Below are positions 12,094 through 36,137 of a DNA stretch of 64,000 bases, piece after piece (the first letter of the stretch is position 1; each line of letters opens with the position of its first letter). A program made the translations under genes and the position numbers. Under the pieces are notes generated by a model, which was not told the origin of the DNA, searched no databases, and saw only the letters and a list, made by a program, of their open reading frames with translations. The stretch comes from Phaeobacter porticola (GTDB taxonomy: Bacteria > Pseudomonadota > Alphaproteobacteria > Rhodobacterales > Rhodobacteraceae). The DNA is taken from the NCBI RefSeq assembly GCF_001888185.1, contig NZ_CP016364.1, forward strand, positions 1,364,001 to 1,428,000. The letters are read 5' to 3'.

Positions 12094-13041
12094 ATGCTGT
12101 CTCTCGACCACATTCATTTTGCACCTGACGAAATCACGCGTGTTCCGCTGTGCGATCTTGGACCCAGCCATGGGCTGAGTGCTGGCGCCGTGAAGATGTA
12201 CCAGCGCTTTTTCGAACTTGAGAGCGTCGGGCTGCAAGGGGATGATCTGAACGGGATGCTGGGCGCAGCGCTTGATGGCGTGCTCGCAACCAACGCGCAG
12301 CTTGTGACGCAGAGCGGTACTCTCTTTTATTGTCGCACCCAGACCCATCATGGGTTTGCGGATCAGGACTGGCTCCGCGGCCTCGCTGATGATCACGGTC
12401 TTGCTGGTTGGGAGGTCAATTCGCTGACGATGACCAGCTGCGCCTCTGCGCTTGCGGCGATGCGGTTTATCCAGGCGATTGAGGAAGAGCACCCCGTCAT
12501 TATCCTGACAGGTGAAAAGGCGTTTCACTACAATGTGGCGCGTTTGCCCGTGGGTCTATTGGCCGAGCTGCCGACTGCCGCGTTGTTCAACGCGGGTCCA
12601 GATAAACGATCCGGGAAATGGACCGTACTCAACACCAGCGTGCGGCACATGCCGCGTTTCTTTCAGAACCCTGATGCGATGGCAGCAGATGATCGGCGTG
12701 CGCTACAGGACGAGTACCTGAGCGGAATGATTGGCTTTGTCGGGGACAGCCTGAAGAATTTCGGGGACGTCCTCAGCGATGATTTTCGGGTTTTGCCGCA
12801 TAATCTCAACCTGCCCGTCACACGCGCTCTGCTGCGCCATTTCGAATGGGAACCGAGGTGCTTTCAAGGCGATGTTCAACGCCTCGGTCACGGTTATTGC
12901 TCTGACATTTTTGTCAATCTGACCGACTACGAGATTTCACACCCCAACCAGATTTCCCCCGGCACCCAGGTGTTCGTGCTGGCTGCCGGGACAGGCGTGA
13001 CCTTTGCGACCTGTCTGCTGGAACGAACGGACTTCACTTAA
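12094..13041 (+). CDS. KASIII-like ketosynthase/acyltransferase, cluster copy 1
   Basis: 315-residue thiolase-fold protein. The nucleophile is Cys116 in LTMTSCASALAA; the catalytic His is His236 in VLPHNLNL. The third FabH residue, an Asn in the GNTSAAS loop, is replaced: the aligned loop reads RLGHGYCSD, giving His266. A Gly-rich C-terminal loop (LAAGTGVTFATC) closes the fold. In FabH the Asn helps decarboxylate malonyl-ACP, so its loss suggests acyl transfer or a non-standard condensation, as in CerJ-like KASIII relatives. First gene of the 20-gene run and directly followed by a carrier protein, its likely partner. Confidence 0.85.
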   Translation: MLSLDHIHFAPDEITRVPLCDLGPSHGLSAGAVKMYQRFFELESVGLQGDDLNGMLGAALDGVLATNAQLVTQSGTLFYCRTQTHHGFADQDWLRGLADDHGLAGWEVNSLTMTSCASALAAMRFIQAIEEEHPVIILTGEKAFHYNVARLPVGLLAELPTAALFNAGPDKRSGKWTVLNTSVRHMPRFFQNPDAMAADDRRALQDEYLSGMIGFVGDSLKNFGDVLSDDFRVLPHNLNLPVTRALLRHFEWEPRCFQGDVQRLGHGYCSDIFVNLTDYEISHPNQISPGTQVFVLAAGTGVTFATCLLERTDFT

Positions 13042-13056
13042 AAGAGGTATGGAAAA

Positions 13057-13326
13057 TTGACAGCGATGATTTTCAAGGCAATCGAAACTGCGCTCTCCGA
13101 GGTCACGGAACGCCAGGTTAGCGGTCTCACACCGGAGACCGAACTGGACAAGGCGTTCGATCTGGATTCCTACATGTTTGTTCAGTTTCTGCTGGCGCTT
13201 GAGGACCAGATCGACGGTTTGCAGTTTGACCCTGATGCCATTGGGCAGCAGGAGTTCAACCACGCAGCATCCCTGGTCAGCCACATCGAAGACCGTATTG
13301 GTGCGCGGCAGGTTGAACATGTTTGA
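13057..13326 (+). CDS. Free-standing acyl/peptidyl carrier protein 1
   Basis: 89 residues. The phosphopantetheine Ser is Ser38 in FDLDSYMFVQF, preceded by the usual acidic Asp; helices before and after fit a four-helix carrier protein. AGAGG lies about ten bases before the TTG at 13057; ATG 13066 is an alternative start. It overlaps the next gene by eight bases. It would be activated by the phosphopantetheinyl transferase at the end of the run. Confidence 0.82.
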   Translation: MTAMIFKAIETALSEVTERQVSGLTPETELDKAFDLDSYMFVQFLLALEDQIDGLQFDPDAIGQQEFNHAASLVSHIEDRIGARQVEHV

Positions 13327-13999
13327 TCTGGACACATCAGACAGCTTGCCGACACTGATGGCTTTGGCGCGCAGGACTGCGCCAAAGGAAGCGTTGGCTG
13401 AGCTGGGCCGGATGCTGTCCGGACAGCCAGCCTATCCGGCATGTAATGGGATGGCGCTGCATGCGTCAGATTTTGGCACATCTGATGCTGCGATGATCCT
13501 CGATCTGAGTAATCTGGGCAAAACGCCGACCCTCACAGCACCAATGGAGGAGGTTGGTCTCGCGGCCTTCGACCTTCAATTGTCACAAAGCGATGCTGGT
13601 ACGCCCAAGATTGCGGATGTCCTAAATCCAGCTTTCATAGCCCTTCGGCTGGGTTGGCTGATGCGCAGTCTTGATCTCGCCTTTGGCCATCTGGAGGGCC
13701 GCGAGAGTTTTGGCATCAAGCTGCTACATCAGCCGCTGATTAAGGCGCAATTCTCTGAAATCAGCGCTGCGGTGGATCGTCTCATGGGAGAGACCCAGCT
13801 GCCGGGCGCACCGACCGCAACAATGATGCTGTCCGCGCACCGCGACATCGGTGTTTTGTTTGGCAAGGCGGCCAAGCTGATGGGCGGACGCGGGCTGCTG
13901 GAAGGGCAATGCCACGGGCTGGAATTCCTTGATGCGGTCTTCTTCGCTCTGGTCCGACCTGCATTTGACGGGGTTTCTGATGATCGGGAACGGGGCTGA
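13319..13999 (+). CDS. Short acyl-CoA dehydrogenase-like protein (C-terminal helical domain only)
   Basis: A 226-residue protein, about half the length of an acyl-CoA dehydrogenase. Its second half resembles the C-terminal four-helix domain: GRESFGIKLLHQPLIKAQ matches the R-x-x-FG-x-x-x-x-x-x-Q pattern, and FGKAAKLMGGRGLLEG matches the LGGRGYLE region. The N-terminal helical and middle beta domains, including the TEPxxGSD flavin loop, are absent. ATG 13319 overlaps the carrier-protein stop by eight bases; a longer upstream frame is a shadow. It may be a structural partner of a full dehydrogenase or a binding protein; catalysis alone looks unlikely. Confidence 0.6.
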   Translation: MFDLDTSDSLPTLMALARRTAPKEALAELGRMLSGQPAYPACNGMALHASDFGTSDAAMILDLSNLGKTPTLTAPMEEVGLAAFDLQLSQSDAGTPKIADVLNPAFIALRLGWLMRSLDLAFGHLEGRESFGIKLLHQPLIKAQFSEISAAVDRLMGETQLPGAPTATMMLSAHRDIGVLFGKAAKLMGGRGLLEGQCHGLEFLDAVFFALVRPAFDGVSDDRERG

Positions 14000-14001
14000 T
14001 C

Positions 14002-14538
14002 ATGACGGGTACTAGTCACTATTTATTTGATTTTAATGGGATGAAATTGGTGTCCCAGGGCCGTGTCCAAACACCTCTATCCGATCCGTCGCCATGTCAG
14101 ATCTCGCTCGATCAGACGTGCAGGGGCCAAGCGGCATCCAATCCTGTGGACCGCGCGTCTGCGCCGGGACTTGGCCCGAACAGCCGCGTGCCGCTGGTCT
14201 ACCTGCACCGCGATTACCACAAGGACGAGCGCTCGCCTAAATTGCTCGATATCCTGAATGTCTTGCAGCACAGCGGTCCTGTGCATGCCTTGCGTATCAG
14301 CAGTGTGGCCACAGCCAGCTCAGCGCGCGGGTTTGTGCAGGCGCTGCTGGAACTGTTTCCCACCATCGTTGTGCTTGAAGACGTGGCGCAAAGCCCAGAA
14401 TTTTGGGACAGCCGGTTCTATGTGCTCTCAGCAGAGTGCTGCACCGATATGCCCATGACGGACCAAGGCGCAGGCGCTGCGCCCCTGTCCGTCCGTTTTT
14501 CCGACCTTGGCGACCTTTCCCCCTCAGTGCGGAGCTAG
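14002..14538 (+). CDS. Truncated KASIII-like protein lacking the active-site Cys
   Basis: 178 residues, no obvious family at first sight. The middle aligns by eye with copy 1: VYLHRDYHKDERSPKLLDIL against FYCRTQTHHGFADQDWLRGL, and SARGFVQALLELFPTIVVL against ALAAMRFIQAIEEEHPVIIL. In this alignment the nucleophilic Cys is Val, and the protein stops before the region that would carry His and the third residue. It could be a non-catalytic partner, comparable in concept with the chain-length factor of type II polyketide synthases, or a remnant. It sits three bases after the short dehydrogenase-like gene. Confidence 0.5.
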   Translation: MTGTSHYLFDFNGMKLVSQGRVQTPLSDPSPCQISLDQTCRGQAASNPVDRASAPGLGPNSRVPLVYLHRDYHKDERSPKLLDILNVLQHSGPVHALRISSVATASSARGFVQALLELFPTIVVLEDVAQSPEFWDSRFYVLSAECCTDMPMTDQGAGAAPLSVRFSDLGDLSPSVRS

Positions 14539-14542
14539 CACC

Positions 14543-15919
14543 ATGCAACCAGCCATTTTTCCAGCCGGCGCGGATGACATCCTGCCACCACCGCGCCGTT
14601 CAGTCTGGTCGGTCCTGTCCGAAATCATAGTCATGGCCATTCCCTTTGCGACCGGGGCGATCATCGTGTCGGGACTGCACCTGGGGAAGGTGGCGATCCT
14701 GGCTCGTGCGCCACAGGCAACGCCGCTTGAACTGCAATCCATGTTGCAGCCTGCGTTCCTGCTGGTGCTGGCCCTGATGGAAGGCCTGGCGATCTCCAAT
14801 CAGGTTTTTAGCGCCCGGTCCAAAAACAACTGGCCGCGCTCTGCAATTCTCCCAGCATCCTGGCGGATGTCAGGCTACGCTTTGATTGGTCTGAGCCTTT
14901 TTGCGGCCATCGCCTACGCCGTCTCTCAATATGTTTCGATAGAGGACCCGCTGTTTCGCGAAACGCTCGACTATCTGCCGCTATATATCCTATCCCTTAG
15001 CGCGTTTGTCGTGTTTGACATTTTCTATGCTGCCATGCGTGGGCAGGGCAAACTGGCGCGCAGCCTGCTGCCGTTTCTTGGGCTTGCAGTGCTGGATCTG
15101 GCAACCACATATGTGCTGCTAACCGAATACAATATGGGGTTTGAGTCCGTATTGATCGGCAATCTGGTCGGCCCGATTTTGATGCTGCCGGTCATCGTTT
15201 TGCTGCTCAAACGTGAGGCCGGTCAGGCCATTACCCATCTCAAGGAACAGGTCAAAGCTCGCACGACACAGTTGTTGATGTTTGTGGGCACCCCGATTGC
15301 GCTGACGATTTTGGTGGGCTCTCTCAGTGCCGCTGTGATCTTTCCGGTGCTGGCAGAGTTCGGCAGTGAATATGCCTCGGCCTTTCTTGTGGTGATGCGG
15401 TTCCGGGTGTCCTTTATGATACCGGCCATCGCCATCGGTTCCGTTATCGCGATCCTGGTGAACCAGTTGGCAGAAAACAGCACCCCGACGGCACGGCTGC
15501 AGTATCTGGGCATTGGTGTGCCCGTGATGCTGGGCTTTTACGGGTTGCTGACCGCGTTGCTGCCATTCTGGGGCGATGACATGATCCGGCTTCTTGTCTC
15601 GCCCAGCCAGAACACCAACGAATTGCGCGCGGCCACGGATCTGGTGATGCAGGGCCTGCAACTGACATTCTTCTTTGTGTCAGGGGCGGCGATGCTTCAG
15701 GTGGTGATGGAGCAGCTGGGGCGTGCAACGCAGGTCCTTATCATTGCCATCGTCACTGAAATCATCACCGGCGGTGTTGTGTTCTACGCTCAATACGTTG
15801 GCCATGATCTGAATATGGCGATCTGGCTGTTGTGCGTGGTCAGTGGTCTGACGTTCGCTTTGTTCTTACTTCAGTTTGCTTTCCTCCTACGCCAACAGGG
15901 GCGCCGCGATGCTGTATGA
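14543..15919 (+). CDS. MATE-family multidrug/metabolite exporter
   Basis: 458-residue inner-membrane protein with about twelve hydrophobic segments and internal two-fold similarity, typical of MATE cation-antiporters. Marks include FDIFYAAMRGQGK in the first half and the second-half helices around FFFVSGAAMLQVVMEQLGRATQ. I choose ATG 14543 because GGAG lies eight bases upstream and the previous gene ends at 14538. As the only transporter inside the run, it is the prime candidate to export the cluster product. Confidence 0.87.
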   Translation: MQPAIFPAGADDILPPPRRSVWSVLSEIIVMAIPFATGAIIVSGLHLGKVAILARAPQATPLELQSMLQPAFLLVLALMEGLAISNQVFSARSKNNWPRSAILPASWRMSGYALIGLSLFAAIAYAVSQYVSIEDPLFRETLDYLPLYILSLSAFVVFDIFYAAMRGQGKLARSLLPFLGLAVLDLATTYVLLTEYNMGFESVLIGNLVGPILMLPVIVLLLKREAGQAITHLKEQVKARTTQLLMFVGTPIALTILVGSLSAAVIFPVLAEFGSEYASAFLVVMRFRVSFMIPAIAIGSVIAILVNQLAENSTPTARLQYLGIGVPVMLGFYGLLTALLPFWGDDMIRLLVSPSQNTNELRAATDLVMQGLQLTFFFVSGAAMLQVVMEQLGRATQVLIIAIVTEIITGGVVFYAQYVGHDLNMAIWLLCVVSGLTFALFLLQFAFLLRQQGRRDAV

Positions 15920-16859
15920 ACTCGCCTTGCCCGGTTTACTTGCACAAGGCGGCTATCGCTGGCTCCGCGCAGTGCGGCGGTCTGCGCCGCAGGAGCCCGC
16001 GCTGCGCTTGCGAACCGCGCGGTCCCGGTTGCGGCGGCTGGAGATAGACCTGCTGGATCGTCTGTCACCTACATTGGCTGCGCGGTTGTTGTTACGGCGG
16101 TTTCATCAAAATCAGTCAGAAACGCCAACACCGATCCCAACGAACCGCGACCAGCAGCTGATCACCGCCAGCGATGCCTTTCACTGTTCAGGCATCTACG
16201 TGCGACAGTTTGGTCCTACAAACGGGCCACGTGTTCTGCTGGTTCACGGCTGGAACGCAGACGGACGCATGATGCTGCCACTGGCGCAGGATCTGGCCGA
16301 CCGTGGTTTTCGGGTCGATGTGCCGGATCTGCCCGGCACCGGTGAATCGCGCGGGCCTGTGCGCAGTTTTGTGGCTGTCGCGCGGCGCCTAAAAAACATG
16401 TGCCCGCAGGATCAGCCGTATGAGGTGCTGGTCGGGCATTCAGCTGGTGGTCTGATGGCGATGATCGCACTGGGGCTGGGGTTCAAGGCGCGCCGATTGG
16501 TGACCCTTTCGGCACCATCTTCACTGGACCGCCTCATGGAGCTCTACCTGCGCTTCACCGGACAGCCCGCCAAAACCGGCGCTGCCCTGATGCGCAGATA
16601 TGCAAAAACCTGCGGCAGAGAGCTGGCAGAGATCGGACCGGCCGAATGCAGGAAAACAACCCTGCCGATGTTGGTGATCCACGCACAGCACGACTGGCAG
16701 GTGCCCCCAGCCGAGGCGCAACGCATCTGTGCCGCACGCGACGGGATCACGCCAATTTACCTGCGCAACTGCAACCACAGATCGGTGCTGCACCATCCAG
16801 AGCTGCTCGGCCTGATGGAGCGGTTCTTTCATGAAACGTCAAACGCGGGGAGCCGGTGA
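15909..16859 (+). CDS. Alpha/beta hydrolase
   Basis: 316 residues, start ATG 15909 overlapping the MATE stop by 11 bases. The oxyanion region is LVHGWNADGR, the nucleophile elbow is VGHSAGG, the acid is in IHAQHDWQVP, and the catalytic His is in NCNHRSVLHH, so the triad is complete. An N-terminal Arg-rich segment of about 80 residues precedes the hydrolase fold. In the run it may release the product from a carrier protein or edit wrongly loaded carriers, as type II thioesterases do; an esterase role is also possible. Confidence 0.87.
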   Translation: MLYELALPGLLAQGGYRWLRAVRRSAPQEPALRLRTARSRLRRLEIDLLDRLSPTLAARLLLRRFHQNQSETPTPIPTNRDQQLITASDAFHCSGIYVRQFGPTNGPRVLLVHGWNADGRMMLPLAQDLADRGFRVDVPDLPGTGESRGPVRSFVAVARRLKNMCPQDQPYEVLVGHSAGGLMAMIALGLGFKARRLVTLSAPSSLDRLMELYLRFTGQPAKTGAALMRRYAKTCGRELAEIGPAECRKTTLPMLVIHAQHDWQVPPAEAQRICAARDGITPIYLRNCNHRSVLHHPELLGLMERFFHETSNAGSR

Positions 16860-17785
16860 TGCTGCATATCGTTGATTTTGAACTGGATCACCCTGAGCGG
16901 ACGGAGTTCCTGGAAGAGATTTCCGAGGATCTTTCGCTCAGTCGGAACCAGCGGCGCATGTTTTCGCGCTTCTTTGGTTTTGAGGCGTTTCACTACGATG
17001 AACAGGCCCCATTGGCGCAGATGACTTCAGGTGCGGTGGACAGGCTGCTGGCGCGCAATCCACGCAGTGCCGCCGCACTTAGCCATGTATCCCATTGCCA
17101 TACCCTGCCGGCAATCACCCATTGCGATGGCGAAAGCTCTTCGATCCTTGCGCCATTTGCCGAACAGGGGCTGGAGGTGTTCAGCGCCACTATGAACCAT
17201 TGTGCAACGGGATTGTCGATGTTGTCGGCAATGGATCAATTGCTGGGCGATGCAGATACCGGGCTTGTCCTGATCGCTGAAAAAGCTTTCCACCCTGATG
17301 TGCGGTTGATCAAGAACACCACGATTATGGGCGAATGTGCGGCGGCGGTTCTTGTGCGTCGCGAGGCCAGCCGCCTGCGGGTTGTTGACAGTCACACCCA
17401 GCATGAAACGCGGTTCTGGCAGAACACCGGACATCTTGATGAACCCTATCTTGAGGGGTTCGAAGACATGTATCTCGATTTTGCGTGCAACACTCTGACC
17501 AACGCGCTGAAGCGGTTCGGCCTTGGGATGGAGGATGTGCGTTTTATTCTGCCGCATAATGTCAACATGGCGTCCTGGATCATGATTGCTCAGATCCTTG
17601 GGTTTGACCGTCATAAGGTCTGCCTCTCGACGATTGCGCGCTTTGGGCACTGCTTTGGTGCCGACCCGTTCATCAATCTGATGCAGCTCATCAAGGACGA
17701 CCAGCTGGTAGCTGGCGACCGGCTGCTTCTGTTCAGCATCGGCCTGGGCGCTACGGCGACCTGCACATTGGTTCAGGTCAACTGA
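16859..17785 (+). CDS. KASIII-like ketosynthase/acyltransferase, cluster copy 2
   Basis: 308 residues from ATG 16859, which shares one base with the hydrolase stop. Cys115 in ATMNHCATGLS and His233 in ILPHNVNMASW are present; the third position again is His (His264 in RFGHCFGADP), as in copy 1. The C-terminal Gly loop is FSIGLGATATC. Carrier protein 2 follows 33 bases later, repeating the synthase-plus-carrier pairing of copy 1. Sequence identity to copy 1 is clear but modest, so the two likely take different acyl groups. Confidence 0.86.
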   Translation: MLHIVDFELDHPERTEFLEEISEDLSLSRNQRRMFSRFFGFEAFHYDEQAPLAQMTSGAVDRLLARNPRSAAALSHVSHCHTLPAITHCDGESSSILAPFAEQGLEVFSATMNHCATGLSMLSAMDQLLGDADTGLVLIAEKAFHPDVRLIKNTTIMGECAAAVLVRREASRLRVVDSHTQHETRFWQNTGHLDEPYLEGFEDMYLDFACNTLTNALKRFGLGMEDVRFILPHNVNMASWIMIAQILGFDRHKVCLSTIARFGHCFGADPFINLMQLIKDDQLVAGDRLLLFSIGLGATATCTLVQVN

Positions 17786-17818
17786 CCCTTTTTTAATTCA
17801 GCGTACTGGAGAAGAAAC

Positions 17819-18100
17819 ATGACAGATCACCAATCGATTGTCCGCGACGCTCTGCAAGGAATTGGCCTTGGGCCGGAACGTGTTGAAGCTGCCTTGAATG
17901 GTAGCCCTATTTATGGGGTTTCGGGTCTCCTGAACTCGCTCGAACTGGTGCAGTTTGTGACCGAACTGGGGGAAGTCACCCGGATAGATCCGACCGAGTT
18001 TTTGTCGGTTGGGGAAAGCGGACTGAACACAGTGGTATCGGGCATCTCGAGCCTCTGCGGGTTTCTTGAGACACGCATGTGTCTGCCGGAAGGGGTGTAA
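17819..18100 (+). CDS. Free-standing carrier protein 2, with Asn before the attachment Ser
   Basis: 93 residues; GGAG upstream of ATG 17819. The likely phosphopantetheine site is Ser40 in GLLNSLELVQF. Most carrier proteins have Asp-Ser here, so the Asn is unusual, though the flanking helix (SLELVQFVTEL) is typical. It lies between KASIII copy 2 and the decarboxylase/dehydrogenase fusion, only four bases before the latter, so it may hold the amino-acid substrate of that fusion. Confidence 0.75.
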   Translation: MTDHQSIVRDALQGIGLGPERVEAALNGSPIYGVSGLLNSLELVQFVTELGEVTRIDPTEFLSVGESGLNTVVSGISSLCGFLETRMCLPEGV

Positions 18101-18103
18101 GGG

Positions 18104-24066: not shown

Positions 24067-24102
24067 CCCAGTTCAGTCCTGACCCTTTACCGAGGTACAA
24101 TT

Positions 24103-24366: not shown

Positions 24367-25967
24367 CGTGTTTCGCTGTCGCGACATCTGACAGCACAGA
24401 GGCACACGCACGGCTGCGAGAGATCTTTGCCGCCTTTGAGGGGGACAGCCGACCGGCCTATTGTGTCGCCGGGGCCGAGTTGAGCTTTGCGGTGCTCTTT
24501 GATCATGCCCGCGCTCTTGGTCAGCGGTTACATGAACAGACCAGCGGTGGCCGTCACAAGCCGGTTCTGATTCATGGCCACAAGGATATTCGCTATCCCG
24601 TTGCCTACTGGGCCTGTCTGCTGGCCGGGCGCACCCTGATCCCGGTTGAGCCGGAAACGCCTGCGTCGCGCATTAAGCAGATTGCCGAAACCTGTGGAGC
24701 TTCCACACTGCTGATCGCAGCGCCTGGCGGGACCGATCTGTCGGGGGTTCTGTCGTCAACCTCACTCGCGATGGTGCCGGTGCCGGATCCACTTGGCCCA
24801 ATCCCTGAGGGGCTGCGGGACGCATCGCAGACCGATGTCATCAAGGACCAAGATCTGGCCTATTTGATGTTCTCTTCCGGCACGTTGGGGCAGCCCAAAG
24901 GCATCGGCATCACCTATGCCAATCTTGTGGACTTTATCGACTGGCTAGATGTGCTCTACCCAGAAAATATCGAGATGACTGGTGTCTCTGGCGTGATCCG
25001 CCATTGCTTTGATGTGTCCTTGTTTGAACTGTGGATGTCGTGGACACGTCGTCTCCCGTTGGTTGCGTTGGATCATGCGGATTTTGCCAATTCGACGGCT
25101 TATATCAACCGTTTGGCAGAGCAGGGCACTAGCCTTTGGGTCTCAACCCCGTCTATTACGCGCCTGTTTCTCACAAACCGCCGGTTCAACGCCGGTCAGC
25201 TGCCAAAACTACGTAACTTTGTGTTCTGCGGCGAGGTTCTGACCAAGAAAATTGTCACTGCGCTGTTTGAGCGGTTTCCCGGATGCCGGATTACCAACAC
25301 CTATGGCCCGACCGAATGTACGGTTGCCGTCACATCTGTGGATATCACCGAGCAGCATTTGCAAGCCGATCAGGATCTGCCCATTGGTGCTGCCCGGCCG
25401 GGAACCGGTTTGGAGGTTGCGGCATTGGCAGACGACCTTCCGGGAGGTGAACTTCTGATCCGGGGCGCCAGTGTTGGCGCAGGTTATGTCGGTTTGCCGG
25501 AAAAAACCAAAGCGGCCTTTCCCGAAGCCGGACTTTACCGAACCGGGGACCGCGCATGTCTGGCCAAGGACGGACTGTGGTACTTCGCAGGGCGTATCGA
25601 CCGAGAGGTCAAAATCCAAGGCGTCCGCATCAACCTCAATGATGTGGAAACCCATCTGCGCAATCTGCCAGGGGTGGAGGATGCCGTGGTCGAACCGCAG
25701 ATGTTGCGCGGCGTGCCACACGCTTTGTCGGCCTATGTGCTGGGGGTGCGTGCGCTTGCGGATCTGCAGCACCTGCCGGCGACCCTCGCGGCGGAATTAC
25801 CGCCCTATTTGGTGCCGCGATATTGGTATGCGGATTTCCCCGCGGGCCTGAACCAGAATTCCAAATTTGATCGTGCAAGACTGGCAAACGCGGCAGCAGA
25901 TGCCCGCCTGCGCCATATCCATATGCCATCTAGCGTTGCCAAAATCGCACAGGAGGAACCCGCATGA
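24363..25967 (+). CDS. DltA-like amino-acid adenylating enzyme 1
   Basis: 534-residue stand-alone adenylation enzyme that should form an aminoacyl-AMP and load a carrier protein. Motifs: LMFSSGTLGQPKGIG near 168-182, HCFDVSLFELW with Asp217 at the position that binds the substrate amino group, WVSTPSITRLFL, FCGEVL, NTYGPTECTVAVTS, YRTGD, and a C-terminal Lys in NQNSKFDR. The STPS, FCGEVL and NTYGPTE blocks are those of D-alanine:carrier ligases, but there is no dltB or dltD and the organism is Gram-negative, so the role is biosynthetic. The amino acid cannot be read with confidence. Confidence 0.9.
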   Translation: MTCFAVATSDSTEAHARLREIFAAFEGDSRPAYCVAGAELSFAVLFDHARALGQRLHEQTSGGRHKPVLIHGHKDIRYPVAYWACLLAGRTLIPVEPETPASRIKQIAETCGASTLLIAAPGGTDLSGVLSSTSLAMVPVPDPLGPIPEGLRDASQTDVIKDQDLAYLMFSSGTLGQPKGIGITYANLVDFIDWLDVLYPENIEMTGVSGVIRHCFDVSLFELWMSWTRRLPLVALDHADFANSTAYINRLAEQGTSLWVSTPSITRLFLTNRRFNAGQLPKLRNFVFCGEVLTKKIVTALFERFPGCRITNTYGPTECTVAVTSVDITEQHLQADQDLPIGAARPGTGLEVAALADDLPGGELLIRGASVGAGYVGLPEKTKAAFPEAGLYRTGDRACLAKDGLWYFAGRIDREVKIQGVRINLNDVETHLRNLPGVEDAVVEPQMLRGVPHALSAYVLGVRALADLQHLPATLAAELPPYLVPRYWYADFPAGLNQNSKFDRARLANAAADARLRHIHMPSSVAKIAQEEPA

Positions 25968-27322
25968 CCCGCAAGGAGATCCCGATCTTCGATGCCAATT
26001 CAACCATGTTTCAGAACATTGGTTTGTTGAAAGTGGCAGAAACCGCGACCCGGCAGCATGGCGATATCGTGGCCATTCGTGTCAGCGACACCCGTGATCT
26101 CTATATCGCGGGCAGTCCTGAGTGTTTTCACTACTGGCGTGGCCATCAGGGGCATTTCCAGACCGACCTTGGTGATATTGCCAGCAATCAGGCCATCACG
26201 CGCATGTTGCTGGGCGATGAGCTGCAGGATCCCCGCTGGAGCGATGTGTGGGTGCTTACGGCCAACCGCATGTCGGCGATTGCGCGGGACTTTGATGGCT
26301 GGCTAGAAACCGCCCTTGCAGACGCAACCCGCACGTTGATCGCCGAACTGCCGCAGGATGGTACAGCGGCGGATCTACGCGATATCTGTCGTGACTGGTC
26401 TATCCGCGCGGTGTGCCCAGCGATTTTTGGCGCTGATCTGGATGTGGCTGAGATCGCGCAGGGGGTTGCCGATGTCGAAGGCTTCTACTTCGCCATGAGC
26501 ACAAAAGATGCCGCCGAGACCGCCGACCATGAAACTCTGGCCGAGTTTAAGGCCGCACGCGGCTTTCTGGACAAGGCCATCACAACCGCTTTGCGCAACA
26601 GCACACCGTCTGATCCTAATTTGATTGCGCAGATCGCAACGGTCATTCCGCAGGATGTGTCCGAGGCAGATCGGCTCAATCTGTTGCGGCCAACCGTGGG
26701 CCATGTGATCACCGAAAAGCTAAATATCGGCGGTCTGAGCCTGTTGTGGACCTTGGTGCAACTTGCCCAGGATCCACAGCTGGCCGCAGACATCAGTGCG
26801 GAATGTCACGGCAATGATCCATTGACGATGCGGGATGCCGACAGCCCCCTGGCGCTGTCCTCGGTCAAGGAAGGGCTGAGATTGTTCCCGGAGTTGCCGT
26901 TCATTTACCGTATCACCAGCGAAGAGGTCCCCATTGGCGACTATGTGATCCCCTCCGGGGCGACGGTTGTCTTCGCGCCATGGCTGGTGCACCGCGACCC
27001 GCGGTTCTGGGAGTCCCCTAAACGTTTTCAAGGGGATCGCTTCCTTGATGAAGCACAGCACCGCGCCCACTACTACCCCTTCGGGGTTGGCGCCCGCATT
27101 CGCTCGCGTGCCAATTTTATGCTGCATCAGCTGACCTTGGCCGCGCGATCCATCTGCGCGGCGCACAGTCTGGCACTCTCGCCTGATTGTCCGCGCGGCA
27201 ACATTCGCCCGCTGTTGCGCTCGGCGCTTATTCCGCGCGGCGTCGTTCCGGTGGTCTTTGCTCCGCGTGACGCATCAGCAATGGCTGCGGACGATCAATC
27301 ATTCGCTGATGCCACTCAATGA
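25964..27322 (+). CDS. Cytochrome P450-fold protein without the heme-ligating Cys
   Basis: 452 residues with overall P450 layout: ExxR at Glu303-Arg306 (VKEGLRLFPELP), the PHRDPRFWESPKRFQGDRF-like region near 342-360, and a heme-loop position YPFGVGARIRSRANF at 371-385. The canonical pattern is F-x-x-G-x-R-x-C-x-G; here the Cys is Arg380 (codon CGC at 27101-27103) and the Gly is Arg382. The I-helix segment (NIGGLSLLWTL, near 254-264) also lacks the acid-Thr pair. Yet the frame is intact and coupled by four bases to the preceding gene. It is either a heme-less pseudoenzyme, uses different ligation, or is recently inactivated. Confidence 0.85.
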   Translation: MTRKEIPIFDANSTMFQNIGLLKVAETATRQHGDIVAIRVSDTRDLYIAGSPECFHYWRGHQGHFQTDLGDIASNQAITRMLLGDELQDPRWSDVWVLTANRMSAIARDFDGWLETALADATRTLIAELPQDGTAADLRDICRDWSIRAVCPAIFGADLDVAEIAQGVADVEGFYFAMSTKDAAETADHETLAEFKAARGFLDKAITTALRNSTPSDPNLIAQIATVIPQDVSEADRLNLLRPTVGHVITEKLNIGGLSLLWTLVQLAQDPQLAADISAECHGNDPLTMRDADSPLALSSVKEGLRLFPELPFIYRITSEEVPIGDYVIPSGATVVFAPWLVHRDPRFWESPKRFQGDRFLDEAQHRAHYYPFGVGARIRSRANFMLHQLTLAARSICAAHSLALSPDCPRGNIRPLLRSALIPRGVVPVVFAPRDASAMAADDQSFADATQ

Positions 27323-27363
27323 TGCCTGCCCAACCGGATCAATCACGAAAAGGAAGATCGCAG

Positions 27364-28923
27364 ATGTTTGAGACATTTATTGCAGACCTCCGTGAAACCC
27401 TGCTCTCGCAACCGGACCGCCCGGCATTGATCACCTCTGAGGAGGTGATCAGTTTTGGCAGCTTGGCTCGCCGGGTTGAAGGCATCCTGCGCGCGCTCGA
27501 CGATATGCCGCCGGGGCTCAGCCTGATTGTCGGTCATAAGGAACCGGATTGCATTGCCGCGATGATTGCCTGCGCCATTGCTGGGCGCGCTTTTGCCTTT
27601 GCCGACCGCTCCACGCCGATGGACCGCTTGGAACAGATCGCCAGCACCGCCGCGGCCAGTCATATCTTGGCCTTTGGCCAGGAAACTCTGCTAGGTGGTT
27701 TGCCGGTCCAGACGCTAAAGGACCTGCCGACACGCACGCCTCAGCTGGAATTGGGAGCTGCGCTCTCTGAGGAGGGACCCTTCTATGTGATTTTCACCTC
27801 CGGCAGCACCGGCACGCCAAAGGGGGTGCCGATTTCACGGGGCAACTATATGGCGCTGCACCGTTGGTATACGCCGCTACTGGGGGCTGTCAGACCGGAG
27901 GGGGCGCATGTGAACCATGCCAGCATGGCCTTTGACATGGGCATGTTTGATCTCTGGCCAACCCTGTCTCTGGGGCGTCCTGTGCATTTGCTCAACCATG
28001 CAAACAACATTATGCCCCGCAACAACATCCGTCATCTGACCCGCGTTGATGTGGCCTCTCCGGCGTCTTGGGCGTCGACCCCTTCGCTGTTGCAATTGAT
28101 GTGCACGGACCCGCAGTTCACCGCTGAAAACCTGCCGGATCTGCGCTTTTTCGTGGTCGGCGGTGAGATGCTGCCGGGTGCGCTGGTCCAGGAACTACAG
28201 ACCCGCTTTCCGCAGGCTCAGGTGCTGAATGGCTATGGCCCGTCCGAGGCGACTTGTGCGACGCATCTCTACCCGATCAGCGTCGCAGATGCTGGTGCAG
28301 ATGGCGCGATGAAAATCGGCTGCGCGGTTGGGGAAAACCGGATGCAGATCATCGACGCAGACGGTGAAGACGTTCCCGCAGGCGAGCAAGGCGAGCTGGT
28401 CTTGTCCGGCCCGCAGGTTATCAGCCACTATTTGCCTCGGGATCACCCCGCCAATGCCGCACTTAACCAAGAGGACGGCATCAATACCTATCGCACCGGT
28501 GATCTCGCCCGTCTTGATGTGGATGGAAATCTGATCCTGCTGGGCCGGATCGACCGGCAGGTCAAACTTCTGGGCAACCGGATAGAATTGAACGAAATCG
28601 AGCGTATCGCAGAAGGCTACTCAGCTGTACGCAAAGCTGTCTGCCTGCCGCAAAAAGACGCCGCCGACCGCGTCACCGGGTTGCAGCTCTTTGTAGAGCC
28701 TCTGGCCGGGGCCACCTGTGAACGGGATGGCTTGTTTGCCCATATGGGCAAACATCTCTCGGCGCAGGTGCTACCGCGTGATCTGCGGATTGTGTCGGCT
28801 TTTCCGGTGACCAGCAATGGCAAGCTGGACACGCGCAGCCTGCTGGAGCTGCCGACTGCACGGACCCCCTCGCGCGGCATCGCGGCATCTGACACGGGTT
28901 TGATGGCGGAGGCTGTGAAATGA
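27364..28923 (+). CDS. DltA-like amino-acid adenylating enzyme 2
   Basis: 519 residues from ATG 27364, where AAGGAAG gives a ribosome site; GTG-like codons upstream are less likely. Motifs: VIFTSGSTGTPKGVP, MAFDMGMFDLWPTL with the amino-group-binding Asp, STPSLLQLMC, VVGGEMLPG, NGYGPSEATCAT, YRTGDLARLD, GRIDRQVKLLGNRIE, and the catalytic Lys in TSNGKLDTRSL. It is clearly related to, but diverged from, enzyme 1, so a second amino acid is likely. No carrier protein is adjacent; it would have to use one of the three others. It overlaps the next gene by four bases. Confidence 0.9.
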   Translation: MFETFIADLRETLLSQPDRPALITSEEVISFGSLARRVEGILRALDDMPPGLSLIVGHKEPDCIAAMIACAIAGRAFAFADRSTPMDRLEQIASTAAASHILAFGQETLLGGLPVQTLKDLPTRTPQLELGAALSEEGPFYVIFTSGSTGTPKGVPISRGNYMALHRWYTPLLGAVRPEGAHVNHASMAFDMGMFDLWPTLSLGRPVHLLNHANNIMPRNNIRHLTRVDVASPASWASTPSLLQLMCTDPQFTAENLPDLRFFVVGGEMLPGALVQELQTRFPQAQVLNGYGPSEATCATHLYPISVADAGADGAMKIGCAVGENRMQIIDADGEDVPAGEQGELVLSGPQVISHYLPRDHPANAALNQEDGINTYRTGDLARLDVDGNLILLGRIDRQVKLLGNRIELNEIERIAEGYSAVRKAVCLPQKDAADRVTGLQLFVEPLAGATCERDGLFAHMGKHLSAQVLPRDLRIVSAFPVTSNGKLDTRSLLELPTARTPSRGIAASDTGLMAEAVK

Positions 28924-30332
28924 GCCTGTTCGCTGACGCCGATAGGCCCCGCTGGCCCGATCAAACGGCCGCGGTGATTGGATCCGGGTTTGCCGGCATG
29001 GTGGCCGCCGCCGTTCTGGCGCGGGTTTTTGGCACCGTCTGGCTGATTGATCGCGAAGACCATCCAAATGTGCCTGCCTTGCGCAAAACCGTTCCGCAGG
29101 CCGCCCATGTGCATGCGTTGCTGCAATCAGGTCAGAATGTGCTGGAACAGGTTTTTCCCGGCTTCGAATGCAAGGCCATCGCCCAGGGAAGCCTGCCGCT
29201 CAAGGTTCGGAGCGGCTGGCGCAGCTTCAGTGCAGGGCGCTGGTTGCCGCCGGTCGAAACCGGGGTGCAGGTTTTGTCGCAAACCCGTCCGGCACTTGAT
29301 CATCTGATCAGACAGCAGATTGCTGGTATCGCGGGCATACTTCCGCTGTTGGGGCGTGTTACGGGCTTGCTGGCGGATGACGCGGGCGCGATCTCTGGTC
29401 TGCGCTTGCTGCAAGACGGTACCGAGCGTGAACTCGCCGTTGATCTGGTGGTGGATGCTGCGGGCCGGGCAGAGCAGGGCGCAGGCTGGCTTGCGGCACT
29501 TGGCCATACCGCACCGCCGGTTGAAACCGGATACCCAGAGGTTCGCTATGTCTCTGGCCTGTTCTCCCGCCAGCTTGACGCAGGTGAGGATCTTGCTGGG
29601 TGGCTCAACTTTGCCTCGGCGCCGATGACACGCGGCGCGGTTCTGGCGCCAGTAGAAGGGGGGCGCTGGATGGCCACGGCGACCTGCCGCTTTGACACGC
29701 AGGCCCCCGCAACCCCAGCAGAGTTTCGGGCGTTTCTTGAGGCGCTGCCAGACGACAAAATCAGCAGCCTGGTTAGGGACGAGACTCTGGTGAGCGAGCT
29801 GAAAAGCTATCGCATCGCCTCTGTACGCTTCAACCGCTTTGATCAGGCCACACAGCCTCTCCCGCTGGGCTACCTGCCCATTGGGGACCGGATTGCCACT
29901 TTTAACCCGCTCTATGGTCAAGGCATGTCGGTGGCGGCGCTTCAGTGTCAGGCGCTTGCGGATGCCTTGGGGCAGGTGACAACCGCTGATCCATCTTCCG
30001 ACTGGCGTGCGGCTCTTGCTGCACCATACCTAGCCAGTGCTGCGGTGCCCGCCGAAGCTGCGTGGCTGATCGGTCAGGCAAGCGATATGGAGTATCCGGC
30101 CTACAGGGGTCAGCCTTCAGCGGCAGCAGTGGCCCTGAACAAGGATCTACGCCGCGCCTTTGCGACCTCAATCGGCCGGGCCGACAGGATGCGCCGCATT
30201 GATCAGGTACTGCACCTGCTTGAACCTCTCTCGCATTTGTCGTCGCTGGTCCACCGCCCCACTGGCTCGGGTGATCCGCGTCAGGATACGGCCTTGGCAC
30301 AGGCGCGCGACATCTCCCCCGCTTTGAATTGA
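28920..30332 (+). CDS. FAD-dependent monooxygenase/oxidoreductase
   Basis: 470 residues. FAD-binding GSGFAGMVAAAVLAR after a short N-terminus, VVDAAGR in the middle, and the second FAD motif GDRIATFNPLYGQGMSVAA near residue 325. This matches the class of single-component flavoprotein hydroxylases, epoxidases and related dehydrogenases that includes squalene-epoxidase-like enzymes; the WxWxIP motif of Trp halogenases is not seen. A tailoring oxidation of a carrier-bound or free intermediate is inferred. Coupled by four bases to adenylating enzyme 2. Confidence 0.86.
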   Translation: MSLFADADRPRWPDQTAAVIGSGFAGMVAAAVLARVFGTVWLIDREDHPNVPALRKTVPQAAHVHALLQSGQNVLEQVFPGFECKAIAQGSLPLKVRSGWRSFSAGRWLPPVETGVQVLSQTRPALDHLIRQQIAGIAGILPLLGRVTGLLADDAGAISGLRLLQDGTERELAVDLVVDAAGRAEQGAGWLAALGHTAPPVETGYPEVRYVSGLFSRQLDAGEDLAGWLNFASAPMTRGAVLAPVEGGRWMATATCRFDTQAPATPAEFRAFLEALPDDKISSLVRDETLVSELKSYRIASVRFNRFDQATQPLPLGYLPIGDRIATFNPLYGQGMSVAALQCQALADALGQVTTADPSSDWRAALAAPYLASAAVPAEAAWLIGQASDMEYPAYRGQPSAAAVALNKDLRRAFATSIGRADRMRRIDQVLHLLEPLSHLSSLVHRPTGSGDPRQDTALAQARDISPALN

Positions 30333-30348
30333 TGAAAGGAATTGCCCG

Positions 30349-31341
30349 ATGAAACTCTTTACCACGGCTCCCCCCTCTGTTCGGTCCAGCGCAGGGGATT
30401 ATCTGAGCAGGATTGCCGATATCGCCCGCTGGCATGAGGATGCAGGCGTTGAGGGCATGTTGATCTACACAGACAATTCGTTGATGGACCCATGGACGGT
30501 CGCCCAGGCAACCATTGAACGCACATCCAAATTTGTGCCATTGGTCGCAACCCAGCCGCTTTATATGCATCCGTTGGCAGTGGCGCGAAAAATCTCATCG
30601 CTGGGGTTCCTCTACGGACGCAAACTGGCGTTGAATATGGTTGCAGGCGGGTTCGTGCGGGATCTCAAACAGCTTGGCGATCAGGCCGAACATGATCCGC
30701 GCTATGATCGGCTGACCGAATACAGCCAGATCATGATGGCATTGTTGCACGGCGAAACCGTGACGCTGGCTGGGGAATACTACCAGGTTGAGGGGCTGCG
30801 ACTGGAGCCTGCGCTGGACGAGGCGCTGATGCCGGATCTCTTTGTGTCCGGTATGTCACCCGCCTGCCAGGCCACAGCCGCGACGCTGGGGGCCACAAGG
30901 TTGAGCTACACAAAACCGCGCGAGCAGCTGGATCAAGCCGCAGTTGCGGGCAAAAACCTTGGCGTGCGATTTGGCGTGATTGCCCGTCCACGCAGCGAAG
31001 ACGCCTGGGAGGAAGCCCGTGCGCGGTTCCCGGCCGACCGGCGCGGCCAATTGGCCCATCGCATGGCACAGGGGACATCCGATTCCATCTGGCACCAGCA
31101 GATCTCAGCCGTGGCCGAAGAACTGGAAGATGCGCGGTCCGGGGCCTATTGGCTGTTTCCGATCAAGAACTACAAGACCTTCTGCCCGTATCTTGTCGGC
31201 AGCTACGAAGAGGTAGCAGACTACATCCAAAGCTATATTTCGCTGGGGTTTGAAACGCTGATCCTTGACGTGCCGCAAGGGCGCGACGATCTGGCCCACA
31301 CCATGCGGGCCTTCGATCTTTGCCAGCAACCGGTGGTGTGA
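30349..31341 (+). CDS. LLM-class (bacterial luciferase-like) flavin monooxygenase
   Basis: 330-residue TIM-barrel enzyme that would use reduced FMN and O2. Visible marks are LALNMVAGGFVRDLKQLGD, HDPRYDRLTEYSQIM and GSYEEVADYIQSYISLGFETLILD, as in alkanesulfonate-monooxygenase-like proteins. In natural-product pathways such enzymes hydroxylate carrier-bound acyl chains (BtrO in butirosin is an example) or nitrogen. AAAGGAATT precedes the ATG. No flavin reductase gene is in the run, so reduced flavin must come from elsewhere. Confidence 0.9.
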   Translation: MKLFTTAPPSVRSSAGDYLSRIADIARWHEDAGVEGMLIYTDNSLMDPWTVAQATIERTSKFVPLVATQPLYMHPLAVARKISSLGFLYGRKLALNMVAGGFVRDLKQLGDQAEHDPRYDRLTEYSQIMMALLHGETVTLAGEYYQVEGLRLEPALDEALMPDLFVSGMSPACQATAATLGATRLSYTKPREQLDQAAVAGKNLGVRFGVIARPRSEDAWEEARARFPADRRGQLAHRMAQGTSDSIWHQQISAVAEELEDARSGAYWLFPIKNYKTFCPYLVGSYEEVADYIQSYISLGFETLILDVPQGRDDLAHTMRAFDLCQQPVV

Positions 31342-31350
31342 GCGGCGATT

Positions 31351-32514
31351 ATGTTCAAACGCACTCTATTCGAAGCAGATCATGAAACCCTGCGCCACCA
31401 GATTGCTGACTTTCTGGAGACACAGGTGGTGCCGGATCACCCGCAATGGGTGGCGGATCGACAGGCTCCACGTGCGATCTGGCAACAGGCTGGTGCGGCA
31501 GGGTTGCTCTGTCGTACCATCCCCACCGACTGCGGCGGGCACGGTGGCGATTTTCGGGACTCAGTGGTCATCATTGAAGAAATCGCCAAACGGCGGCTCT
31601 GCGGTCTTTTGACCTTTCTTCAAAGCGATATTGTCGCCCCCTATCTGCACCGCTTGGGGAATGAGGTTCAGCGGCAGGAATATCTGCCGGGCCTGTGTTC
31701 AGGGCGGCGCATTGGGGCGATTGCCTTGACCGAACCGCAAGGCGGCTCCGATCTGCATGCGCTGAGCTGCGCGGCAGAACAGGACGGTGACGAGATTGTC
31801 CTGACGGGGGAGAAGACACATATCTCAAACGGCTCTCAGGCCGATCTCATTATCGTGGCCGCCCGTAAGGGGGGCACGGATGGGGGGACCGGACAACCCA
31901 CGGGCTTTGACATGGTGCTAGTGGATGCCGACGCACCCGGCCTGACGCGCAGCCGGATCAACAAAACCGGGATGCCTGCGCTTGACACCAGCCATTTGCG
32001 GTTTGACGGTTGTCGCGTGCCACAGGGCAATCTCTTGGGGGCCAGCGGCATGGGGTTCTTCTATCTGGTGAGCTTCCTGAGCATCGAACGGCTGGTGCTT
32101 GCGGTCTATGCTCAGGCCATGACAGAGACGCTGCTGCAAGAGACGGTGAAGCTGTGCAGTACACGCCAGACCGGGCAGGGAACGACATTGGATTATCAGG
32201 CAACGCAATTCCGGCTGGCTGATCTCTATGGTGAGGCCATGGCCAACAGATCCTTTGTCGACAGCTGCATTACAGATCATCTGGCCGGACGGTTGGACAA
32301 TCGCAATGCCTGTATCGCCAAACTGCGCAGTACCGAGACCTTGGCTGCGATTGCGGCGGCGAAACTGCAACTATCTGGTGCCCGCGGCTATTGCACGGAG
32401 GGACCTGACACCGCAACGCAGGACGTGCTCGACAGTGCGATTCAAACCATCTGGGGCGGCAGCAGCGAAGTGATGCGCAATGTGGTGGGAAGCAGCCTCG
32501 CAAACATCCTGTGA
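31351..32514 (+). CDS. Acyl-CoA dehydrogenase
   Basis: 387 residues, a complete three-domain enzyme. IALTEPQGGSDLHAL gives the flavin-contacting signature near residue 130, GEKTHISNGSQADLI follows, and the C-terminal IWGGSSEVMRNVV replaces the YEGT of short-chain enzymes, as in the GGTSEIM subgroup where the catalytic base lies elsewhere. Probable role: alpha,beta-desaturation of a carrier- or CoA-bound unit. This is the second complete dehydrogenase of the run, besides the one in the fusion at 18104. Confidence 0.92.
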   Translation: MFKRTLFEADHETLRHQIADFLETQVVPDHPQWVADRQAPRAIWQQAGAAGLLCRTIPTDCGGHGGDFRDSVVIIEEIAKRRLCGLLTFLQSDIVAPYLHRLGNEVQRQEYLPGLCSGRRIGAIALTEPQGGSDLHALSCAAEQDGDEIVLTGEKTHISNGSQADLIIVAARKGGTDGGTGQPTGFDMVLVDADAPGLTRSRINKTGMPALDTSHLRFDGCRVPQGNLLGASGMGFFYLVSFLSIERLVLAVYAQAMTETLLQETVKLCSTRQTGQGTTLDYQATQFRLADLYGEAMANRSFVDSCITDHLAGRLDNRNACIAKLRSTETLAAIAAAKLQLSGARGYCTEGPDTATQDVLDSAIQTIWGGSSEVMRNVVGSSLANIL

Positions 32515-32522
32515 GGTGGTGC

Positions 32523-33296
32523 ATGCCCGCGTCTGATCATCATGTCCCGGTCCCCGCATTGCAACCGGGGCAGGTTCACCTGTGGCAGGGGACTGTGGGC
32601 TGCGGCGCTTTGGCTGATCTTGACCCAACCGTCCTGTCACCGTCAGAGCAGGCGCGAATGGCCAGCATCGCAAACACCGACGCGCGCGCGCTTTATGCCG
32701 CGTCGCATGTGGCCCTGCGACATGTTCTTGCAGCCTATGATGGCCGTCCGGCCAGAAACCTCAGGTTCAGGACCGCTGAAGGGGGTAAGCCAGGGCTTGT
32801 TGACGGGCGCGGGCTGTCATTTAACCTGTCGCATTCCGGGCAGATGCTGCTGATCGCGGTGGCCGACGATTGCGAGCTGGGCGTCGATATTGAACAACAG
32901 CGAGGCGGCCACAGGTCCGAGGCCGTCGCCCGCCGTTTCTTTGCGCCCGAAGAATATACTGCGCTGGCAACATGTCCTGTACATCTGAGGTCAGACTATT
33001 TCACCCAGATATGGGCGCTGAAAGAGGCCTATATCAAGGCCACGGGGCAGGGGCTTGCGCAGCCACTGCAGGGATTTGCGGTCCAGTGTCTTGAGGACCG
33101 TGCCGAGCTTATGCGCTGTGACATAGGCAGGCCTGATGATTGGACATTGGTCACCTGGACACCGACACCCGGATACAAGGCTGCTCTGGCCGCTCAACGA
33201 CCGGCGCTCGAGGTCCATCATTTCGATCTTTCTGAGGCAGACATCCCCAGCCCAGCAGGTTCTCTTTTCCGCAAACCACATTCTGGCCGTCCTTAA
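32523..33296 (+). CDS. Sfp-type 4'-phosphopantetheinyl transferase
   Basis: Transfers phosphopantetheine from CoA to the Ser of the carrier proteins. 257 residues from ATG 32523 with GAGG just upstream; GTG 32511 is less likely. Motifs: FNLSHSGQMLLIAV, LGVDIEQQR with the Mg-binding Asp-x-Glu, and the signature WALKEAYIKATGQGL. Last gene of the 20-gene run, eight bases after the dehydrogenase. Its presence strongly supports carrier-protein-based biosynthesis in this run. Confidence 0.93.
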   Translation: MPASDHHVPVPALQPGQVHLWQGTVGCGALADLDPTVLSPSEQARMASIANTDARALYAASHVALRHVLAAYDGRPARNLRFRTAEGGKPGLVDGRGLSFNLSHSGQMLLIAVADDCELGVDIEQQRGGHRSEAVARRFFAPEEYTALATCPVHLRSDYFTQIWALKEAYIKATGQGLAQPLQGFAVQCLEDRAELMRCDIGRPDDWTLVTWTPTPGYKAALAAQRPALEVHHFDLSEADIPSPAGSLFRKPHSGRP

Positions 33297-36050: not shown

Positions 36051-36137
36051 GGCGGTGCATTGGCGGAGTTAAAGGGGGAAATCACATATTCTTATGACGG
36101 TGCCAGAGTTGGTAGGCGTAGGAAAATCAAGATAAGT

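Follow-up and report, generated by a model that had tools for sequence, protein, structure and literature searches.

A Vfm-type gene cluster, apparently for peptide assembly without condensation domains, on a genomic island of Phaeobacter porticola

The vfm quorum-sensing locus of Dickeya has been described as uniquely present in that genus (PMC8860905, 2022) or as Dickeya-specific, with a signal that is still uncharacterised (PMC13395407, July 2026), and is listed for both Dickeya and Musicola in another paper (PMC10319131); here and below, statements attributed to papers mostly follow excerpts of their text. Which signal analogue a Dickeya strain produces is attributed to variation of vfmO and vfmP (PMC9306890). 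Among the matches listed in the open full-text literature, with subscription papers and preprints outside that scope, none reports a vfm-type cluster outside Dickeya and Musicola. In the present work we describe a run of 20 genes in Phaeobacter porticola, located within a window of 64,000 nucleotides (the whole stretch of DNA that was analysed; positions 1,364,001 to 1,428,000 of NZ_CP016364.1, the main contig of a 4.2 Mb genome). Judging from sequence comparison, the core of this run is homologous to the Dickeya vfm locus, and the genomic island that carries it is probably a horizontally acquired peptide-assembly island of the Vfm type that dispenses with condensation domains.

Three further groups of described systems, of which afc and bol were compared with the window through the papers and not by sequence, resemble the run in their chemistry. 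For the antifungal AFC-BC11 of Burkholderia (afc), loading of Asp, its decarboxylation and the formation of a C-N bond by a 3-ketoacyl-acyl carrier protein synthase III (KAS III)-like enzyme have been reconstituted without condensation domains (PMC12186527). Like the window, afc encodes a VinN-type Asp ligase, a pyridoxal 5'-phosphate (PLP)-dependent decarboxylase, a free carrier protein and KAS III-like acyltransferases with Cys, His and Asp, and has no condensation domains; unlike the window, it includes a fatty acyl-AMP ligase and fatty-acid genes, a single carrier and a single amino-acid adenylation enzyme. The term vfm is absent from the excerpted text of that paper. In the bolagladin (bol) cluster, a comparable set is proposed, with support from bolN and bolQ deletions, to convert aspartate to dehydro-beta-alanine (PMC7756342); counterparts of this cassette (BolO, BolC, BolN and, by family, BolQ) and its KAS III logic are seen in the window, whereas bol feeds a nonribosomal peptide synthetase (NRPS), uses a citrate-primed fatty acid and has BolM and BolP without Cys. 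Finally, VinN/VinO/VinL and BtrK/BtrI share with the window side-chain loading (VinN) or a carrier-bound substrate, followed by decarboxylation on the carrier, and differ in feeding a polyketide synthase (vicenistatin) or butirosin.

The run occupies positions 12094-33296, and its families were assigned by Pfam and NCBIfam profile matches of the 20 proteins; the start codons of several open reading frames (B, C, E and L) were shifted by inspection from the first list. Acyl-CoA dehydrogenase is abbreviated ACAD and the predicted local distance difference test score pLDDT.

12094-13041, + strand: A, KAS III-like acyltransferase with Cys and GHxxxxD (PF08541; motifs 12/12; 35% to the vfm locus)
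13066-13326, + strand: B, carrier protein 1 (PF00550; Ser 22/22; start moved from the TTG at 13057)
13319-13999, + strand: C, ACAD C-terminal-only protein (PF00441, weak and under the cut-off)
14002-14538, + strand: D, unknown protein with a possible half KAS III fold (178 amino acids; 10-row alignment; model pLDDT 70)
14543-15919, + strand: E, MATE-like exporter (TIGR00797, weak, 25 bits and under the curated cut-off; 32% to the vfm locus)
15909-16859, + strand: F, alpha/beta hydrolase (PF00561; 31% to the vfm locus)
16856-17785, + strand: G, KAS III-like acyltransferase (PF08541; Cys and GHxxxxD 34/34; CerJ/FabH alignment)
17819-18100, + strand: H, carrier protein 2 (no Pfam match; Ser 15/15; vfm homologue at E 2e-6)
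18104-20590, + strand: I, BtrK-type decarboxylase fused to an ACAD (BtrK the best solved relative; ACAD middle and C-terminal domains)
20587-21462, + strand: J, protein with the KAS III fold but no catalytic Cys, probable partner of K (SDRG at the place of Cys; predicted fold)
21459-22475, + strand: K, KAS III-like acyltransferase (PF08545; Cys, His and GHxxxxD 34/34)
22465-24066, + strand: L, VinN-type aspartate ligase, VfmM counterpart (aligned to VinN, 3wvn; code DYHPSSMRCK)
24103-24366, + strand: M, carrier protein 3 (PF00550; Ser 31/31)
24363-25967, + strand: N, DltA-like ligase, VfmO counterpart (DltA model 318 bits, under its cut-off; code DVFVVCTVAK)
25964-27322, + strand: O, P450-like protein in which Arg occupies the haem-Cys position (PF00067; motif comparison)
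27319-28923, + strand: P, DltA-like ligase, VfmP counterpart (DltA model 296 bits, under its cut-off; code DMFAVGGCAK)
28920-30332, + strand: Q, flavin adenine dinucleotide (FAD)-dependent oxidoreductase (weak Trp_halogenase and QhpG matches)
30349-31341, + strand: R, luciferase-like monooxygenase (PF00296)
31351-32514, + strand: S, complete ACAD (three ACAD domains)
32511-33296, + strand: T, Sfp/HetI-type phosphopantetheinyl transferase (PF01648; 38% to the vfm locus)

An earlier, sequence-only reading had reported twenty co-directional, tightly spaced genes here; that observation is confirmed, all genes lying on the + strand at a spacing of -11 to +36 bases, and the interpretation attached to it is partly supported. 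The three ANL enzymes (L, N and P) are borne out by family matches, as are the MATE exporter (if weakly), the hydrolase, the phosphopantetheinyl transferase, the decarboxylase-ACAD fusion and the second ACAD; C, a third protein of this kind, resembles only the C-terminal part of an ACAD. The three free carriers also stand, H on the strength of its Ser, which like that of B and M is kept in all sequences aligned (counts above). Family searches of the 20 proteins reported no condensation domain, in agreement with the earlier reading, and the run thus does not qualify as a modular NRPS. Of the five KAS III-fold proteins that had been counted, three look active (A, G and K), J has the fold without the Cys, and D is doubtful; of the two supposed flavin monooxygenases, R is a luciferase-like enzyme and Q only an FAD protein with weak matches. 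The gene list had omitted the P450-like protein at 25964-27322.

The same reading had recognised no described pathway with this set. The set does, however, correspond to the Dickeya vfm locus, and its chemistry to bolagladin and AFC-BC11: in D. undicola, best-match homologues are found for 15 of the 20 run genes (A, B, C, E, F, G, H, I, J, K, L, M, N, P and T), and S is represented only by a second-best ACAD match, behind I. Shared by the window and the vfm locus are VfmM/N/O/P-type ligases and carrier, a BtrK-type decarboxylase, ACADs with an ACAD C-terminal stub, KAS III-like proteins including the Cys-less partner, a MATE protein, a hydrolase, a phosphopantetheinyl transferase and, by family, a MacB-type ABC transporter. 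Two genes encode the decarboxylase and the ACAD in the D. undicola locus, whereas the window has them fused; the window also adds luciferase-like and FAD oxidoreductases, the Cys-less P450 and a membrane AraC regulator and has an unusual VfmP code. The short form of C is retained in the vfm locus and in four loci of other genera (L015-L018), which argues that C is not a decay fragment.

The assignment of the ligases follows from their codes. Published codes are DVYVICTVAK (VfmO2) and DMMFFGACVK (VfmP2) for D. oryzae ZYY5, and VfmO2 with DLMFAGCCMK (VfmP3) for D. undicola 2B12 (PMC9306890); those read here from the two loci (L046 and L048) are identical to them, and since the codes of two Dickeya type strains were reproduced exactly, L, N and P of the window are taken to correspond to VfmM, VfmO and VfmP. 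Across the 36 sequences surveyed (N matches below 36% identity, P matches below 34% and short matches were dropped), the VfmO-type code is near-constant, with changes among 32 codes at positions 3, 5 and once 7, and the VfmP-type code varies widely (27 codes). Neither DVFVVCTVAK nor DMFAVGGCAK equals any published VfmO or VfmP code, and the latter, which is unusual, is common to the window and two congeners.

The run had been taken as the whole unit; the actual unit is larger and includes an exporter, a regulator and the island edges.

6766-35716, no strand: genomic island, the whole transferred unit ending at the tmRNA (empty site in G075; same site occupied in G1034 and G1033)
7207-8343, + strand: HlyD/RND-type periplasmic adaptor of the exporter (Pfam HlyD_D23; homologues beside the cluster in L015-L018)
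8371-9078, + strand: MacB-like ABC ATPase (Pfam ABC_tran; 43% to the vfm-locus ABC gene)
9075-10217, + strand: MacB/FtsX-like permease 1 (Pfam FtsX and MacB_PCD; homologues in L015-L018)
10221-11423, + strand: FtsX-like permease 2 (Pfam FtsX)
33447-34037, + strand: unknown protein whose N-terminus looks like a signal peptide by eye (no Pfam match; kept in L016 and two congeners)
34594-35661, + strand: AraC regulator with six predicted membrane helices (HTH_18; same architecture in L015-L018)
35718-36052, - strand: permuted tmRNA gene, right island edge (also at the empty site and in both congeners)

The flanks of the island (up to window position 6765 and from 35717) are 28.95 kb apart in the window and 353 bp apart in congener G075 (L061, positions 2979 and 3333), and the island occupies the identical site in congeners G1034 (95.5% DNA identity over 31.5 kb) and G1033; the marker protein J is found in 4 of the 7 genomes of the genus, P. 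porticola included. The G+C content is 58.1% inside the island and 60.1% in the remainder of the window. The comparison with the congeners indicates a mobile, horizontally acquired island of about 29 kb and about 26 genes. Over 26 genes, the ratio of nonsynonymous to synonymous substitution rates (dN/dS) is 0.00-0.23 against G1034 and 0.015-0.36 against G1033, the latter values being only rough because dS is mostly >1; the sole stop inside a matched stretch lies in the phosphopantetheinyl transferase match of G1033. Decay of the run, which the earlier reading had named as a finding that would refute it, is rejected on this dN/dS pattern and the presence of the island in the congeners, and the run appears intact and under purifying selection. 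The protein at 33447-34037 was considered as a counterpart of a 215-amino-acid vfm-locus protein and rejected (BLASTP E 2.1); a protein of similar size without detectable similarity lies near the phosphopantetheinyl transferase end in gammaproteobacterial loci. Outside the island, a second, ordinary-looking P450 that keeps its Cys (window 24-956) is apparently cut by the window edge.

The general claim of the sequence-only reading, that amino-acid units are tethered, decarboxylated, desaturated and joined by KAS III-like enzymes in place of condensation domains, is supported by homology, and the decarboxylase and the first ligase narrow its substrate to what these proteins suggest, aspartate loaded through its side chain. 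Among relatives in the Protein Data Bank, the decarboxylase half of I is closest to BtrK, with which it scores 266 bits; the highest score with a diaminopimelate decarboxylase is 164. The core of L matches VinN (3WVN; PMC11253843), as a single domain, at 153 bits, more than any other single domain of solved structure; the highest-scoring LgrA domain has 83. The VinN residues D230, S299 and R331, to which recognition roles are ascribed (PMC7756342), fall on D, T and R of L when the numbering is shifted by 16, a single offset that suits all three positions; Asp and Arg are retained and Ser is replaced by Thr. The trio D, T and R recurs in 32 of 32 relatives read. Of the ACADs, one is fused to the decarboxylase (I) and the second is complete (S); their likeness to BolQ and AfcE is by family only. 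Proline-to-pyrrole ACAD chemistry was also considered; S scores 164 bits with the prolyl-carrier dehydrogenase model, whose cut-off of 650 lies far higher.

The KAS III-like proteins A, G and K have weak FabH-family matches and keep the Cys and GHxxxxD triad throughout (A 12/12, G 34/34, K 34/34; of the 34 sequences surveyed, those with a best match on the minus strand or of less than 31% identity were not counted, which leaves 12 for A). In the alignment of G, its GH stands opposite GN of FabH and GH of CerJ. The Cys-His-Asp triad is that of the CerJ/ChlB3 acyltransferases (PMC9573744) and suggests that the joining chemistry of the earlier reading is acyl transfer more probably than Claisen condensation. 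J has no family match; its model (pLDDT 92.5) has a KAS III/thiolase fold, SDRG stands where the catalytic Cys belongs (25 of 29 possible rows aligned; L024, L040, L041 and L045 excluded), and it directly precedes K in the mapped loci. J as an active ketosynthase is rejected for want of the Cys, and we infer an inactive/active pair J/K, which we presume to be analogous to PqsB/PqsC. The model of D shows only a weak half-domain resemblance, with weak HMGS/ChlB3 fold matches.

The following scheme, in which every reaction, the bond order and the function are conditional, builds on the homology, gene order, active-site letters, selection and island described above. T would activate the free carriers, and L, of the VfmM type, would load L-aspartate through its side-chain carboxyl; the decarboxylase half of I would then strip the alpha-carboxyl to leave a beta-alanyl thioester, which the ACAD half of I, S or both would desaturate to dehydro-beta-alanine. 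Two further amino acids would be loaded by N (VfmO type) and P (VfmP type), amide bonds would be formed by the KAS III-like acyltransferases A, G and J/K, and Q and R, rather than the Cys-less P450, would perform oxygenations. The hydrolase F may release or edit the product, for which the ABC and MATE proteins would provide export. The product is accordingly predicted to be small and peptide-like, with a beta-alanine or dehydro-beta-alanine unit and two further amino acids. The VinN/BtrK/ACAD assignments would thereby predict one piece of the structure of a Vfm-type signal, and KAS III-like amide synthesis gains support as a recurring alternative to condensation domains.

The P450-like protein O departs from the P450 family at its haem ligand. 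In a motif survey of 35 sequences (8 without a reading because they were cut or unmatched or the motif was missing; the second copy in L024 was unreadable), the haem-motif Cys is present in 18 loci (L018, L020, L030, L032-L045 and L047) and missing in 9 (the window, L016, L017, L021, L022, L024, L026, L028 and L031), where Arg replaces it, or His in the second L017 copy. Homologues of the alphaproteobacterial group, where readable, are without the haem Cys, and Arg at this position is common to the window and both congeners, so that O falls outside what defines a functional P450. Its dN/dS is 0.09 versus G1034 and 0.06 (0.058) versus G1033; since the Cys is lost yet the gene is strongly constrained, a haem-free role of O in this group is likely, and Q and R may have taken over oxidation. 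A Q homologue was found only in L016 among the loci searched, a result limited by their flanks. The P450-derived glycosyltransferase activators (TIGR04515) are likewise not known to carry the haem Cys. O resembles them in being derived from P450 and differs in sequence, the match being 26 bits, far under the cut-off of 343.

Export and sensing can be compared part by part. The window ATPase is 43% identical to that of the vfm locus, and both permease sets belong to the MacB/FtsX families: the 862-amino-acid vfm permease has no window match at 1e-8, aligns with permease 1 at E 0.001 and with permease 2 locally (31%, E 1.7e-4). The Dickeya locus encodes a histidine kinase and a sigma-54/Fis-type response regulator (by Pfam), taken as VfmI and VfmH, which have matches in 10 of 34 sequences (7 Pseudomonas, 1 Rahnella and 2 Dickeya). 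In the seven Pseudomonas loci and the Rahnella locus (L038), together L037-L044, close relatives of the kinase/regulator pair (49-65% identity) and of the 862-amino-acid MacB-type permease lie beside the biosynthetic genes, and complete Vfm-like systems thus apparently exist outside Dickeya. Alphaproteobacterial clusters with sufficient flank have an AraC protein as their neighbouring regulator; a simple hydropathy count predicts six or seven membrane helices in each of those taken from the window and from L015-L018 (6 of 6). The AraC protein of the window matches none of the proteins called from the Dickeya locus at E 0.01, and VfmE was not identified there.

It is quite possible, a little short of an even chance, that the island makes a signal which is secreted and then perceived by way of the AraC protein anchored in the membrane; we infer a signalling role only, because the Dickeya two-component sensor was not found in the window. 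Rather doubtful is the fuller proposal of a complete alphaproteobacterial system of the Vfm kind, in which the AraC protein, in place of a histidine kinase, would be the receptor of an autoinducer, a short non-ribosomal peptide with a dehydro-beta-alanine unit, the Dickeya signal would contain the same unit, and the P450 would serve as a haem-free structural partner or acyl-carrier chaperone. Several observations weigh against the Vfm-type reading. VfmI and VfmH have no tblastn match in the 64-kb window, the rest of the genome being unsearched, nor in the fetched alphaproteobacterial loci, whose flanks are limited; the sensing part therefore differs from that of Dickeya. Neither AFC-BC11, an antifungal, nor bolagladin, a proposed siderophore, is a signal. 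O, Q and R, like D, have no match in the D. undicola vfm locus, and the final product hence probably differs from the Vfm signal. As a whole protein, L scores higher with the two-domain gramicidin synthetase LgrA (323 bits) than with VinN (243), and its core score is near-tied between LgrA and VinN (153.6 to 153.8) when two LgrA domains sum. Lastly, the FabH-type His is also kept in G (34/34), K (34/34) and A (9/12), and its retention in G and K would also be compatible with Claisen or C-C chemistry.

Several of these points suit a product of the same chemistry that is an antibiotic, toxin or metal chelator, with the AraC protein sensing something else, an explanation that is possible, with the chances leaning against it. 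AFC-BC11 and bolagladin are in logic the chemically closest studied relatives, MacB-like and MATE-like exporters are in general suited to an antibiotic cluster, and the VfmH/VfmI pair was not found in the window. The gene-by-gene match, on the other hand, is to a signalling locus, and the VfmP-like code varies while the VfmO-like one is near-fixed, two genes that in Dickeya set the signal variant. It is unlikely that the KAS III-like enzymes instead form C-C bonds toward an alkaloid or pyrrole-like product, presumably by chemistry of the PqsBC type: Cys and a FabH-like His in G and K and the inactive/active appearance of J/K would fit, whereas no malonyl-loading enzyme was recognised in the family searches of the run, GHxxxxD belongs to the acyltransferase triad, and AfcL forms a C-N bond in vitro (PMC12186527). 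A system decorating the cell surface or exopolysaccharide, related to the exosortase A-associated ligase/decarboxylase pair, is very unlikely, because TIGR03099 and TIGR03098, although the top NCBIfam matches of I and L and joined by the DltA likeness of N and P, score under their curated cut-offs, no glycosyltransferase or exosortase was reported when 26 island genes were scanned with Pfam, and the vfm signal is extracellular and AFC-BC11 a free molecule in the excerpted literature.

Returning to the Vfm-type reading, its distribution was followed mainly through J. The fused decarboxylase-ACAD protein occurs, at a strict threshold, in 2 of 295 family genomes. J is present in 1 of 385 genomes at class level and in 3 of 398 at phylum level; these three genome counts include P. 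porticola itself. Among plasmids, J turned up in 16 of 72,556 records, and when 84,980 species genomes were scanned a single time with J patterns, it was located at 28 loci, a scan that relatives with a diverged J escape. The fetched loci have 10-kb flanks or contig ends, and absence at their edges is no evidence. The gene-order search proposed in the earlier reading found the order A-O in Tritonibacter mobilis, which has P too, and in Gemmobacter fulvus, where the record stops inside O; with some rearrangement or additions it recurs in a Rhizobium and in Agrobacterium vitis VAR03-1, and remoter, rearranged versions are found in Rahnella, Pseudomonas, Lonsdalea, Prodigiosinella, Vibrio, Xenorhabdus and Dickeya. 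In a tree built on five proteins from 32 sequences (rooted by midpoint only; L034 and L038 excluded), 14 alphaproteobacterial members form one group (support 0.99), and the other 18, which combine gamma- and betaproteobacteria with A. vitis, form a second (support 1.0). The presence of a vfm-type core in roseobacters, rhizobia, Pseudomonas, Rahnella, Lonsdalea, Vibrio and Xenorhabdus makes these clusters a wider, thinly spread class, and candidate producers outside the soft-rot pathogens are thereby offered for isolating a Vfm-type molecule. The crown-gall antibacterial of Rahnella HX2 was considered as a product of such a locus and rejected, as the abstract of PMC4263746 names gluconic acid.

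Minor observations concern individual relatives. Ligase P of the Rhizobium plasmid is annotated as two separate pieces (L017, 6098-7605), and the luciferase-like protein of A. vitis VAR03-1 is matched over 82 residues only (L018, 31494-31754). The plasmid search with L counted 2 Burkholderia records among 142 matches. A ligase with about 43% identity to L is found on megaplasmids of Sinorhizobium, a genus in which J matched no plasmid. On a Streptomyces plasmid (L019), a BtrK-type decarboxylase, an L-related ligase and a carrier adjoin ectoine genes and a P450.

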